From Apilactobacillus zhangqiuensis (GTDB taxonomy: Bacteria > Bacillota > Bacilli > Lactobacillales > Lactobacillaceae), in NCBI RefSeq assembly GCF_019656215.1, contig NZ_BPLK01000002.1:206738-270737 (forward strand): 64,000 nt of DNA, read 5' to 3'. The translations under genes and the position numbers were made by a program. Below, in pieces: positions 26,385 to 30,690 of the stretch. How positions within the stretch are numbered: the first letter of the stretch is position 1; the number at the start of each line of letters is the position of its first letter. The notes under the pieces were generated by a model, which ran no database searches, was not told where the DNA came from, and saw only the letters and a list, made by a program, of their open reading frames with translations.

Positions 26385-27752
26385 ATGAAATTTAAAGCAC
26401 CAGTTACAAAGAACGAAGAATATGAAGTCGATATTGTCGACTTAACATACCAAGGCTTAGGAGTAGCCAAGATTGAAGATTATCCTTTGTTTATTGAAGA
26501 CACTCTTCCAGGCGAAAAAGCTTTGATTAAGGTAATCAAAGTTAACCAAAACTTTGGTTTCGCGAAGTTAGAAAAGTTACTAACTAAATCACCTGATCGT
26601 GTTGAAAACATCGACAAAAATTACACTCGTACAGGAATTGCTCCATTACAACATCTAAAATATGATGCACAATTGGAATTCAAACAACACCAAATTCAAG
26701 AACTTTTCGACAAGTCCAAGATGGATGTTGAAATATTGCCAACTATTGGGATGGATGACCCAACTCATTACAGAAACAAGGCCCAAATTCCAGTTCGTTC
26801 AATTAACGGTAAACTACAAACTGGTTTCTTCCGTAAGCATTCACACGACCTAGTACCCATTGAAGATTTCTACATTCAAGATCCAGAAATCGATAAGGCC
26901 ATCGTGGTAGTTAGAGACATTCTACGTAAGTATCACATTGAACCATACAATGAAACTCAACATAATGGTGTGATTAGAAACATCATGGTTAGAAGAGGTC
27001 ACTACACTAATCAAATGATGATTGGATTGATTACTCGTACCAAGAAGATTCCAATGGTTGATATCATCGTCCGTGAAATTAAGGAAGCTTTACCTGAAGT
27101 AACAAGTATCATGCAAAACATCAACTTGTCAGATGGTAACGGTTTGTTAGGTAAGAGTACTGTTTGCCTTTATGGTAAGAAGTACATCGAAGACAAGTTA
27201 CTTGGTTTGAAGTTCGCTATTTCATTGAACTCATTCTACCAAGTTAACCCAGAACAAACTGAAAAACTTTACTCTCTAGCAATTGAAAAGGCGCAACTAG
27301 ATGGTACTCAAACAGTAATCGATGCTTACTGTGGTATCGGTACTATCTCATTAGCTGTTGCCGAACATGCTAAGAAAGTTTACGGTGTGGAAATCGTTAA
27401 GGAAGCCATCGAAGATGCTAAGATTAACGCGCAAAAGAACCACATTAACAACACTACTTTCGTAACCGGTAGTGCAGAAGACCAAATGGAAAAATGGCAA
27501 GCACAAGGATTGAAACCAGATGTTATCATGGTTGATCCTCCACGTAAGGGACTTGCATCATCATTCATCGACAGTGCTGCTCAAGTAGCACCTAAGAAGA
27601 TTGTTTATGTATCATGTAACCCATCAACATTAGTACGTGATGCTCGTCGTTTAGCTGAATACGGTTATGAAATTACTCAACCAGTTCAACCGGTTGACCA
27701 ATTCCCACAAACTGTTCACGTTGAATCAGTGACTGTATTTGAAAAGAAATAG
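26385..27752 (+). CDS. rlmCD: 23S rRNA (uracil-C5)-methyltransferase RlmCD/RlmD type
   Basis: SAM-dependent m5U methyltransferase of the TrmA/RumA family; the Gram-positive enzyme modifies U747 and U1939. 455 residues: N-terminal TRAM domain (NEEYEVDIVDLTYQGLGVAKIEDYPLFIEDTLPGE), SAM-binding VIDAYCGIGTISL (about 310-322), and the active site IVYVSCNPSTLVRDA with catalytic Cys near 410. The [4Fe-4S] Cys cluster of RumA is absent, as usual for Gram-positive paralogues. Confidence 0.93.
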   Translation: MKFKAPVTKNEEYEVDIVDLTYQGLGVAKIEDYPLFIEDTLPGEKALIKVIKVNQNFGFAKLEKLLTKSPDRVENIDKNYTRTGIAPLQHLKYDAQLEFKQHQIQELFDKSKMDVEILPTIGMDDPTHYRNKAQIPVRSINGKLQTGFFRKHSHDLVPIEDFYIQDPEIDKAIVVVRDILRKYHIEPYNETQHNGVIRNIMVRRGHYTNQMMIGLITRTKKIPMVDIIVREIKEALPEVTSIMQNINLSDGNGLLGKSTVCLYGKKYIEDKLLGLKFAISLNSFYQVNPEQTEKLYSLAIEKAQLDGTQTVIDAYCGIGTISLAVAEHAKKVYGVEIVKEAIEDAKINAQKNHINNTTFVTGSAEDQMEKWQAQGLKPDVIMVDPPRKGLASSFIDSAAQVAPKKIVYVSCNPSTLVRDARRLAEYGYEITQPVQPVDQFPQTVHVESVTVFEKK

Positions 27753-27760
27753 ATAAGAGA

Positions 27761-27791
27761 AAAGACACCCTGCGAGAGGGTGTCTTTTTTT
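27761..27791. terminator. Terminator between rlmCD and the MazG-like gene
   Basis: AAAGACACCC, a 7-base loop, GGGTGTCTTT and T run; it can serve both converging genes. Confidence 0.88.
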
Positions 27792-28098
27792 ATTTGTCGA
27801 ATTTCCAATTTCGACCTTTATTAATGTTTATTTTATCTTGTATAATATCATTAGGTTCAACTTGTAGTTTTTCGCACATGTAGTAACAATATATTAATAC
27901 ATCTGCTAATTCTGACTTCAAGTTTTCCTTATCCGTGGATGATAAAGAACTATCATCTTTTTTCCAAAGAAATATTTTTTCGACCTCAGAAGCTTCAATA
28001 CCTAAAGCTCTAGATAATGATATAAGAGTATGATATTCATTCCAGCCTCTGTCGTTTCTAAATTCAATTAATTCTTGAATTATATCTTTATATTCCAT
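27790..28098 (-). CDS. MazG-like nucleotide pyrophosphohydrolase
   Basis: Predicted to hydrolyse (d)NTPs to monophosphates and PPi. ATG 28098 (MEYKDIIQELIEFRNDRGW) has AAGGAGA upstream and gives 102 residues. The metal-binding pattern ExxE...ExxD is present: E35/E38 in IEASEVEKI and E63/D66 in SELADVLIY. The FRNDRGWNEYHT start resembles RS21-C6/dCTPase-type members. It is divergent from the helicase gene at 28130 with only 31 bp between start codons. AT-rich codon use (many ATA, AGA, TTT) differs from flanking genes, suggesting the pair arrived together. Substrate cannot be told from sequence. Confidence 0.82.
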   Translation of the reverse strand: MEYKDIIQELIEFRNDRGWNEYHTLISLSRALGIEASEVEKIFLWKKDDSSLSSTDKENLKSELADVLIYCYYMCEKLQVEPNDIIQDKININKGRNWKFDK

Positions 28099-28129
28099 AA
28101 AAATCTCCTTTAAGGTAGGTACTTTATAA

Positions 28130-29911
28130 ATGTCAGATAGCAACATAGCTAAACCAATTATTAAAAAATATGATTACACCATTAATAGTGACATAAAACA
28201 AGAAATTTTAAAACAAAATAATACTAAAGAAGAACATGAACTAATAACCAGATTTCCAACAGTATACATAGTTATAGATAAAATTCGTGGTAAAAAAAAG
28301 AAATTTGGTCAATTCAAAGCGTACGTTGGTGAAACCAACAATATTGTACGTAGAACAGAAGAGCATTTAAATAGCGAATCAGAAGATAGAACGGATTGGA
28401 CAGAACTAAATAATTCTAAGGATGCTAAGATTATTGTTATTGCCCATAAAGAATTTAACAAGTCGTTAACTTTAGATATTGAAAATCAATTAATGAAATA
28501 TCTTCTTAGTGATGACGCAATTGGTGAACTAAATAATCGTAGATCTAATGATCAAGATTTATACTTTACAAGAGATCATTTTAGAGATATTTTTCAAAAT
28601 ATTTGGGAAGAATTATCTAAGAAAAATAAAGATATCTTCCCGAGTGTTGATGACATTACCAATTCTGCAATTTTTAAAGCATCTCCCTTTCATAAGTTAA
28701 CTGATGAACAATTAGATGCCAGAGATGAAATAATTGATAAAATCAAAGATATTAAAAAAGGAAATGGCACGGATAATTTAATTATTATCAAGGGTTCTGC
28801 AGGAACAGGTAAGACGGTTCTATTAAGCTCTTTATTTGCTGAGCTCAATAAACCTGATAATCAAGAAGCATATATGCTTGTAAATCACAATCAACAGGTT
28901 AAAGTATATGAAAATATAGCTCAAAAAATAGGTATTAAAACAAGACTTGGTGATTCAATAGTTAATAAACCAACAAAGTTTTTAAATAAACACCAAGTTG
29001 GAGATGAAAATTCAAAAATAGATATTGCTTTAATAGACGAAGCACACTTACTGCTTACTGAAGGTTATATGGTTTATCAAGGTTCAGGTCATTTGAAAGA
29101 TATAAGAAGCATATCAAATGTTGTCGTAGCTGTATTGGATCCAATGCAGGTATTAAAGGGCAATGGATATGTTGAAAAATCGTATTATGATAAATTAATT
29201 AGTAAGTCAAGAGAGAATAATCAATTAATAGAGTTGTCTGAACAAAATAGAATGGATGCTTCTATAGAAACCATTGATTGGATTGAAGATATTGTTACTA
29301 AAAATGAAATTAATAAGATTCCTAGAGATGATAAGTATGATTTAAGAGTCTTTAATGATGTTAATAATATGTATAAAGAAATTAAAAAGCATAATGATAG
29401 TATTCAATCATTAACAAAGGGTTTATCAAGAATGGTTGCTACTTATGATTGGGAATTTAGATCAAGTAGATATAATAAAATTATTCAAAATGATGGTACT
29501 GTGGTCGATGATTTATGGCGAGTTTCAATTGGTGATAAATTTAATCTTCCTTGGAATTATCAATTACCGGTTGAGAAGAAATATAAAGACTTATCATGGG
29601 CAGAGCAACCTCAAACAATTAATGAAGTTGGTTCTACATTTACAATTCAAGGCTTTGATTTGAATTATTGTGGTGTTATTCTTGGTCCTTCAATCAAGTT
29701 TAGGAACGGAAAAGTAGTTTATGATGGAACAGAAAGCTTTGACAGACAAGTTACAGACAAAAGAACAATGAAAAACGGAGAACAAAAGGATATATCATCT
29801 GAGTTAATTCGCAATCAACTAAACGTGCTACTAAAACGTGGGGTACATGGACTTTTCATCTATGCTGTTGATGACGAACTAAGAAAAGAATTAATCAGAC
29901 AAAGCAAATAG
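28130..29911 (+). CDS. GIY-YIG nuclease domain fused to DUF2075 (SF1-type) helicase
   Basis: A 593-residue two-domain protein. Residues 43-125 look like a GIY-YIG nuclease: VYI (45-47), AYVG (64-67), NNIVRRTEEH with Arg74/75 and His79, and a candidate catalytic Glu118 in LDIENQ. Residues about 190-590 match DUF2075: Walker A KGSAGTGKT (221-229), DEAH (303-306), LDPMQ (336-340), SEQNRM (370-375), and near the end FTIQGFDL and LLKRGVHGLF, corresponding to helicase motifs V and VI. AAGGTAGGT precedes the ATG. Role unknown; defence or nucleic-acid repair are inferences. It is clearly AT-richer than the housekeeping neighbours and has terminators on both sides of the pair. Confidence 0.85.
   Translation: MSDSNIAKPIIKKYDYTINSDIKQEILKQNNTKEEHELITRFPTVYIVIDKIRGKKKKFGQFKAYVGETNNIVRRTEEHLNSESEDRTDWTELNNSKDAKIIVIAHKEFNKSLTLDIENQLMKYLLSDDAIGELNNRRSNDQDLYFTRDHFRDIFQNIWEELSKKNKDIFPSVDDITNSAIFKASPFHKLTDEQLDARDEIIDKIKDIKKGNGTDNLIIIKGSAGTGKTVLLSSLFAELNKPDNQEAYMLVNHNQQVKVYENIAQKIGIKTRLGDSIVNKPTKFLNKHQVGDENSKIDIALIDEAHLLLTEGYMVYQGSGHLKDIRSISNVVVAVLDPMQVLKGNGYVEKSYYDKLISKSRENNQLIELSEQNRMDASIETIDWIEDIVTKNEINKIPRDDKYDLRVFNDVNNMYKEIKKHNDSIQSLTKGLSRMVATYDWEFRSSRYNKIIQNDGTVVDDLWRVSIGDKFNLPWNYQLPVEKKYKDLSWAEQPQTINEVGSTFTIQGFDLNYCGVILGPSIKFRNGKVVYDGTESFDRQVTDKRTMKNGEQKDISSELIRNQLNVLLKRGVHGLFIYAVDDELRKELIRQSK
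28173..28201 (-). promoter_or_regulatory. Candidate promoter of the MazG-like gene
   Basis: On the minus strand TTGTTT (28196-28201), 17 bp, TGTAAT (28173-28178). It lies inside the first codons of the divergent helicase gene, so the two transcripts would overlap at their 5' ends. Confidence 0.45.
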
Positions 29912-29918
29912 ACAAAAG

Positions 29919-29944
29919 AGACACCCCTCACAGGTGTCTTTTTT
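29919..29944 (+). terminator. Terminator of the GIY-YIG/DUF2075 gene
   Basis: AGACACC, a 7-base loop, GGTGTCT and TTTTTT. Confidence 0.88.
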
Positions 29945-30018
29945 GCACTTCCCAAGATTTGGGTATATATTACTTTCTATTGAAAACACAAAATTAAACA
30001 TAAAAGTAGGCGAAATAT

Positions 30019-30690
30019 ATGCGTATTAATATTATTCAACATACTCCAAACGAACGACCAGGTTCGATTTTGGATTGGGCACATGACAGGGGACATGACG
30101 TTTACATCTACCATCCATACCAATTTGGTATCCTACCAAAGGTAGATGAAACTGATATGTTAGTTATCATGGGTGGTCCAATGAGTGTTAACGATGATAT
30201 TGATTGGATTGAGTTCGAACGGGACATTATCAGAGAACTTGCTGAAAAAGATGTTCCAATCTATGGTGCCTGTTTTGGTGCGCAACAAATTGCCAAAACA
30301 TTTGGTGCCAAGATTACCACCTCAACAGAAAAGGAAGTTGGTTGGGCACCAGTATATTTAAGATCCGAACGCATCCCTGGCATTTATAATAAGCTTACTG
30401 CAATGCACTGGCATGGTGAAATGTTTGAAATTCCTAAGAATGGGGAATTATTATTCTCCAGTGATTTGGTGGAAAACCAAGGATTCATTATTGGCGACAG
30501 AATTGTTGGTTTACAATTCCACTTTGAATTAGGTACTGACGAAGTCAGAGAAATCGTTACCAACGACAACAAGTACGTTGCTGGATCAGCATTGAATCAA
30601 ACTAATGAAGATATCTTAGCTAGACCAGTACCAAAAGAAAACAAACAAGTGATGTATGCAATTTTGGATTACATCACACAAGGCAAATAA
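30019..30690 (+). CDS. Class I glutamine amidotransferase-like protein
   Basis: Cytoplasmic protein of 223 residues resembling the stand-alone GMP-synthase glutaminase-like group. The nucleophile elbow YGACFGAQQIAK (Cys near residue 85) and the catalytic His-Glu in LQFHFELG (about 167-172) are intact, so the glutaminase fold should be active. Substrate is unknown; it lacks the synthetase domain of GuaA. Weak ribosome binding site (TAGGCGAAAT). Monocistronic. Confidence 0.85.
   Translation: MRINIIQHTPNERPGSILDWAHDRGHDVYIYHPYQFGILPKVDETDMLVIMGGPMSVNDDIDWIEFERDIIRELAEKDVPIYGACFGAQQIAKTFGAKITTSTEKEVGWAPVYLRSERIPGIYNKLTAMHWHGEMFEIPKNGELLFSSDLVENQGFIIGDRIVGLQFHFELGTDEVREIVTNDNKYVAGSALNQTNEDILARPVPKENKQVMYAILDYITQGK

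Follow-up and report, generated by a model that had tools for sequence, protein, structure and literature searches.

A movable MazG-like pyrophosphohydrolase and GIY-YIG/SLFN-g3 nuclease-helicase gene pair in Apilactobacillus, probably a conserved defence module

Described systems and the two proteins of the locus

The Gabija system consists of two genes, which encode the nuclease GajA and the superfamily 1 (SF1) helicase GajB, while MazG and NUDIX enzymes are house-cleaners. The locus described here lies in a stretch of 64,000 nucleotides from Apilactobacillus zhangqiuensis (contig NZ_BPLK01000002.1), called the window below, and holds two divergent genes. One encodes a MazG-like nucleoside triphosphate (NTP) pyrophosphohydrolase and the other a GIY-YIG nuclease-type domain fused to an SLFN-g3 helicase (formerly DUF2075). 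The pair is a movable cassette in Apilactobacillus, the adjacency of its genes is far above chance level, and the two form a conserved module that is probably a defence system. The locus resembles Gabija in having a nuclease and an SF1 helicase in a two-gene unit, with some likeness of the helicase fold in structure matches. However, the nuclease is here of the GIY-YIG type and is fused to the helicase, and the second gene encodes an NTP pyrophosphohydrolase. Membership in Gabija failed, as neither a TOPRIM or OLD match in Pfam nor a Gabija match in PADLOC was found at E values up to 1. A known PADLOC system was also rejected as the identity of the pair, as there was no full-length match to any system protein.

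Other described proteins resemble parts of the locus. The GIY-YIG_COG3410/DUF2075 (PF09848) proteins, for which an entry presumably exists in CDD, are alike in being the fusion itself, and their relatives carry the NCBI name 'DUF2075 domain-containing protein'. The PLD-DEAD-DUF3427 helicases with a NUDIX gene (mREase_IV) also twin a nuclease-helicase with a pyrophosphohydrolase of NTPs or deoxy-NTPs (dNTPs), but the nuclease and hydrolase are unrelated to those of the window and the helicase is of another type. A defence-island paper of 2011 may list the DUF2075 helicase family. A partnership of MazG with DUF2075 was not found in the literature searched; an earlier prediction is possible, and subscription papers lay mostly outside the search. 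DefensePredictor places MazG among predicted, unvalidated defence domains (PMC13092281), a GIY-YIG survey names an SF1 helicase fusion, Tlr8 (PMC1564403), and the passages of a BREX survey on Schlafen proteins and pyrophosphatases do not describe the pair (PMC12839542).

The fusion gene (28130..29911, plus strand) encodes 593 amino acids (aa), and its structural model has a pLDDT (predicted local distance difference test) of 86. The helicase domain occupies residues 217-581 (28778..29872), with a Walker A motif around K228 and a DEAH motif at residues 303-306. Against PF09848, the SLFN-g3 helicase family, it scores 274.5 bits from position 3 to position 354 of the 354-position profile, and K228 is invariant among 33 aligned sequences including that of the window. 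By this full-length profile and its SF1 helicase fold the fusion protein is an SLFN-g3 helicase; the structure matches of the model mostly span residues 139-593. The GIY-YIG domain occupies residues 43-142 (28256..28555). PF01541 matches residues 44-123 narrowly, with 23.9 bits against a cut-off of 22.6, and Y46, Y65, G67, R75, H79 and E118 are invariant among the same 33 sequences. With this profile match, the tyrosine boxes, the arginine, the histidine and the metal-binding glutamate, the protein is a predicted member of the GIY-YIG superfamily. The sole Protein Data Bank (PDB) matches of the domain profile up to E 1 were not significant (1mk0, E 0.25; 2wsh, E 0.82), and both are GIY-YIG enzymes. 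No Schlafen core RNase domain was found ahead of the helicase among the 25 Pfam families listed at E up to 1. A scan of a genome collection with the fusion protein returned three close relatives only.

The MazG-like gene (27790..28098, minus strand) encodes 102 aa from an ATG preceded by an AAAGGAG site; a 118-aa version is an upstream extension of the same frame. The protein matches the Pfam family PF12643 (MazG-like) with 45.4 bits against a cut-off of 27, and its metal set E35, E38, E63 and D66 (ExxE...ExxD) is invariant among 22 aligned MazG sequences including that of the window. By profile and metal set it belongs to the predicted MazG-like all-alpha NTP pyrophosphohydrolases. Thus, both proteins proved to be what the first-pass annotation, made from the letters of the window, had called them: a 102-residue MazG-type protein with this metal set and a 593-residue fusion of GIY-YIG with a full DUF2075 helicase. 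The solved structures nearest to the MazG-like protein are 4qgp ('pyrophosphatase') and the house-cleaners DCTPP1/RS21-C6. It is like the latter in its fold family and in seven of the eight residues of the deoxycytidine triphosphate (dCTP) pocket of DCTPP1, as listed in PMC4491611, the eighth being changed from H38 to L10; unlike theirs, its gene stands beside a nuclease-helicase and not alone. Its pocket residues include W19, W45 and Y70. DCTPP1 favours dCTP together with its 5-methyl and halogen forms (PMC4491611; PMC7162842).

Recurrence and mobility of the pair

The two genes were followed through 350 genomes of Lactobacillaceae, with 84 MazG matches taken at E < 1e-13. Fusions with the nuclease domain (GIY-YIG + SLFN-g3) are referred to as long forms and the nuclease-free paralogous helicases as short forms. 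Ninety-one long forms were among the matches listed, from which weaker ones may be absent, and a MazG-like gene lay no more than 130 bp from 56 of them. It was upstream on the same strand in 30 pairs, downstream on the same strand in 17 and divergent in nine, as derived from coordinates; a recount on gene calls, with L124 and L125 included, gave 27, 20 and 8. In other Lactobacillales (148 genomes of the order, not counting rows from the window's own family) a MazG gene lay within 200 bp of 24 of 32 full long forms, 19 times downstream, four times upstream and once divergent, with gaps of 23-199 bp. In Apilactobacillus the long fusion occurred in 10 of 16 genomes and MazG in nine, and every MazG stood beside a fusion. 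Short-form loci carried no MazG in any of three control sets: 0/16 with flanks of 1.5 kb, 0/3, and 0/20 with flanks of up to 6 kb, three genes being common to the sets of 16 and 20. On a tree of 88 helicases (three of the 91 were too short) the arrangement or absence of MazG switched at least 14 times and its presence at least 11 times. The conserved adjacency that the first-pass annotation had set as a test of its proposal was therefore found.

The pair also reaches beyond the order, as seen in a wider sample of 398 Bacillota genomes. Outside Lactobacillales the GIY-YIG form was seen by eye at three loci, all three with MazG. At eight further loci of distant Bacillota (L218-L225) a different N-terminal domain stands in place of GIY-YIG, and MazG adjoins five of the eight; this count excludes L226 (a split form) and L227 (a fragment), both lacking MazG, as well as L291, an additional G521 copy that has MazG beside it. 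The replacement domain has invariant E68, D79 and E96-x-K98 across seven aligned sequences, a pattern that we take to be the PD-(D/E)XK signature; none of the four proteins scanned matched a Pfam nuclease model. On this residue pattern, GIY-YIG is replaced in distant Bacillota by a predicted PD-(D/E)XK-type domain. A phylum search with this form matched 8 of 299 genomes, and three full copies had already been counted. On a haloarchaeal plasmid a MazG-type gene precedes a DUF2075 gene by 5 bp, and MazG was next to the helicase in five of the 13 regions opened from plasmid records (12 of 36) and phage-collection records (1 of 4). On a putatively viral fecal scaffold, 'Bacteriophage sp.' MT836409.1 (L300), a MazG-type open reading frame (ORF) adjoins the helicase.

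Within the genus the pair occupies different sites, and its site in the window is variously filled. In G001 this site is empty, with both flanks meeting around a single terminator, and the genome's own pair lies elsewhere. G005 has an Mrr-type restriction gene at the site, and G014 has an Mrr-similar gene in two pieces (by eye, with only the right flank judged). In A. kunkeei the abortive infection (Abi) gene AbiA and a type ISP restriction enzyme stand alongside the pair; in A. nanyangensis the same AbiA and type ISP ORFs were recognized by eye, with the right flank beyond the contig. At other sites in the genus the module stands beside GmrSD_N and Cas9/Cas1 (G001), beside GmrSD_N and a type II restriction-modification pair of Dcm with a MutH-type restriction endonuclease (G003), or beside a PDC-S36/PD-T4-1-like protein (G010). 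Thus, the defence genes met genus-wide beside module copies or at the site comprise AbiA, type ISP restriction-modification, Mrr, GmrSD/HEC-06, Cas9/Cas1 and Dcm with a MutH-type endonuclease. Vertical inheritance with the chromosome, which the first-pass annotation had named as a refutation, was not found, and the comparison of sites among congeners disfavours a chromosomal housekeeping role.

Defence genes were also frequent around module copies in the whole family. The near neighbours of 47 modules (139 of 174 proteins) gave matches to 111 PADLOC models at E 1e-15, most prominently those for PbeA, PDC-S07, type IV restriction endonuclease and type II methyltransferase, as against 23 models for 112 neighbours of 20 short-form loci, where the figures count models and not proteins and the control extended to up to three genes per side and the test set to two. 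In the control, nine proteins accounted for mad3 and the other 22 models had one each, mostly a single GmrSD-like protein. Mrr, McrB-type and DUF3427 genes, a type IV restriction context, were among the module neighbours, and in five of 11 annotated plasmid regions the annotation includes restriction or CRISPR genes close to the helicase. The proposed defence-island location therefore stood in part: many copies lie among defence genes when compared with control loci, but the window's own neighbours are of housekeeping type.

Possible roles of the MazG-like protein

The module MazGs fall into two deep groups, on a tree of 102 columns with many uncertain forks. In six Lactobacillaceae modules the MazG belongs to the group that occurs in other families, which suggests that the partner was replaced. 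The window MazG is 28-42% identical to the MazGs of other families. When 25 second-group module MazGs were compared with 18 lone copies, which have no helicase nearby and lie, by eye, in housekeeping-type surroundings, each shared 57-90% identity with its nearest lone copy. Thus, the second group looks like a recruited house-cleaning activity and not a toxin. Lone and module MazGs occur together in six genomes of the order (G351, G363, G370, G376, G424 and G442). It was considered whether the lone MazGs are cut-off modules, and this was rejected, as most of the 23 loci viewed had housekeeping-type surroundings by eye; the exceptions were MazGs beside a diverged or cut-off fusion (L124, L125) and orphans beside a DUF3427 helicase (G157, G164). 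A parallel is offered by the PLD-DEAD-DUF3427 helicases, which have a NUDIX gene beside 19 of the 30 best loci (L301-L330; L295:3351-6648). The NUDIX proteins are related to MutT/NudG-like enzymes and CTP/pyrimidine diphosphatases, below equivalog cut-offs, and one relative of the helicase (L112) was scored by PADLOC as the type IV restriction enzyme mREase_IV. In 5 of 88 cases no more than 0.8 kb separates a DUF3427 helicase gene from a GIY-YIG fusion.

The reading favoured here, with a probability of about 0.37, is that the movable pair is an anti-phage system of restriction type in which MazG clears unusual nucleotides for the host. The predicted nuclease-helicase would travel along foreign DNA, most likely that of phages, in an ATP-driven manner and cut it. 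MazG would remove unusual nucleotides, probably 5-modified dCTP, so that these would be kept out of the host DNA and the host would be spared attack by the nuclease-helicase. The pocket residues, the likeness of the second group to lone copies, the joint occurrence of lone and module MazGs in six genomes and the NUDIX parallel suggest such a sanitising role over nucleotide depletion; the least certain step of the scheme is the choice between protection of the host and starvation of the phage as the effect of MazG.

Several observations weigh against this reading. The likeness to lone copies covers the second group only, and the window MazG is in the other group, which lowers the weight of the sanitising role and raises that of depletion. 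The position of DCTPP1 H38 is L, I or V among the module MazGs; thus, the base preference may differ. Of the 91 long forms listed, 35 have no MazG, also within about 6 kb where contigs allow, which argues against a strictly needed antidote and indicates that the two genes are not obligate partners. In addition, one MazG-less clade of three loci has a SIR2 gene directly downstream at two of them, with gaps of 7 and 25 bp. These are two different SIR2-domain genes (L100:5408-6238; L102:4012-5811), and SIR2 is part of killing systems in PADLOC. SIR2 in the place of MazG suggests exchangeable effectors, nucleotide-consuming ones, and an effector role fits this better. In PADLOC 2.0.0, MazG had no match and the fusion had six partial matches (best E 6.4e-5); no defence gene adjoins the pair in the window or in G006, and none stood out in G002. 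The neighbour comparison described above, with its models and uneven spans, is also a point on this side. The view of the pair as a defence module held in part, for its conserved linkage, its non-vertical distribution and the defence neighbours of many copies.

The example given in the first-pass annotation, nucleotide depletion plus cleavage, leads to a reading of MazG as a second weapon: on infection it would convert (d)NTPs to monophosphates and stall phage replication while the nuclease-helicase cuts. This role is somewhat unlikely, although it draws on the conserved catalytic residues of MazG and on the SIR2 exchange, and bacteria are known to have immune effectors that upset the nucleotide pool (PMC12265719). 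Against it, second-group MazGs share up to 90% identity with lone copies, which says nothing of the window's group, and in the six genomes with both kinds of MazG the activity is already tolerated by the cells. No sensor or off-switch for MazG turned up, in work that made no systematic search for one. It would be more surprising if MazG tuned the nuclease-helicase, in that hydrolysis of nearby NTPs or dNTPs lifts an inhibition of the nuclease by nucleotides, as in Gabija. The locus has the negative TOPRIM, OLD and Gabija results given above, and the nuclease-helicase often occurs without MazG; this role is improbable.

A module for DNA repair or nucleotide hygiene that has no phage role is held to be equally improbable. 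It could appeal to the house-cleaning enzymes among MazG and NUDIX proteins, to the short-form helicase in all 16 genomes of the genus and to the housekeeping-type neighbours of the pair in the window, but the presence of the long form is sporadic in the genus, at different sites and with one site empty, restriction and Abi genes occur at the same site, and there are plasmid copies. Functionally unlinked passengers collected in a hotspot would account for a site between two housekeeping genes that is a sink for unrelated cassettes. Yet the two genes stand side by side again and again, at sites that are unrelated and in groups far apart, with three gene orders, two MazG groups and two nuclease types, and this explanation is very hard to credit. 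A toxin-antitoxin pair was rejected, as type II systems need obligate pairing and the 35 listed fusions have no MazG nearby. It was also considered whether the MazG-less loci always have a substitute partner. They do not; among the 35, few close same-strand partners stood out (SIR2 twice, and Dcm, a DUF3427 helicase and NA37 once each).

The sanitising role could extend to a general design, in which restriction-type nuclease-helicases tell self from non-self by a sanitiser of the nucleotide pool and not by methylation of their own DNA. MazG, or a NUDIX enzyme, would destroy modified dCTPs, including those from chopped phage genomes, and the target mark would never be written into the host chromosome. 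This generalization is doubtful, and a sanitiser-based design of this kind was not found in the literature searched. The parallel pair of NUDIX and DUF3427 suggests that DNA-attacking machines are repeatedly accompanied by a function that cleans the nucleotide pool. The module is spread across Lactobacillales and extends to other Bacillota and to a haloarchaeon; the labels of the relatives seen do not go beyond 'DUF2075' or 'DNA/RNA helicase' for the one protein and 'nucleotide pyrophosphohydrolase' for the other. Should it be a defence system, it would combine a helicase of Schlafen type with a nuclease and a nucleotide-hydrolysing enzyme and provide a tractable counterpart of the SLFN11 helicase in prokaryotes.

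Locus layout and minor observations

The start codons of the two genes are separated by a gap of 31 bp (28099..28129), inside which both ribosome-binding sites were placed by eye. The gaps to the outer neighbours are 37 and 107 bp; these neighbours, named by eye, are an RlmCD-like methyltransferase gene and a glutamine amidotransferase-like gene. The fusion gene has a GC content of 0.294, the lowest among the 49 ORFs of the window that reach 150 aa (mean 0.371, standard deviation 0.023), and the MazG gene, which is below the length limit of that list, has 0.278. A hairpin search and site comparison placed a terminator hairpin at the left cassette junction (27760..27788) and a related one at the right junction (29919..29939). 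Five terminator-like sites fall in 27400-30400, as against a mean of 0.9 in shuffles. The description of an AT-rich divergent pair, flanked by terminators and set between housekeeping genes, was thus accurate.

A terminator hairpin of one kind (AAGACACC...GGTGTCTT, perfect to a varying degree) bounds cassettes at this site. Besides the two window positions, it is found at 712, 7632 and 9787 of the A. kunkeei locus (L028) and at the junction in L247. It is single at the empty site, and the perfect form occurs at two places only in a 1.44-Mb genome; the hairpin may be a recombination joint. The AbiA-type reverse transcriptase/HEPN gene of A. kunkeei lies at L028:776-2731.

The short-form helicase measures about 400-430 aa and is present also in many genomes of the family (L002, L012-L026; L263-L282); its stretch is interrupted by stop codons in G004 and G008. 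Four MazG-less fusions (L113, L114, L116 and L122) have an additional N-terminal helix-turn-helix domain, XRE-like by eye, ahead of GIY-YIG. A strongly diverged second GIY-YIG + SLFN-g3 form was seen at L091:5143-8601 and L124:2095-3798, once in tandem with the usual form and lacking MazG, and once with MazG downstream.

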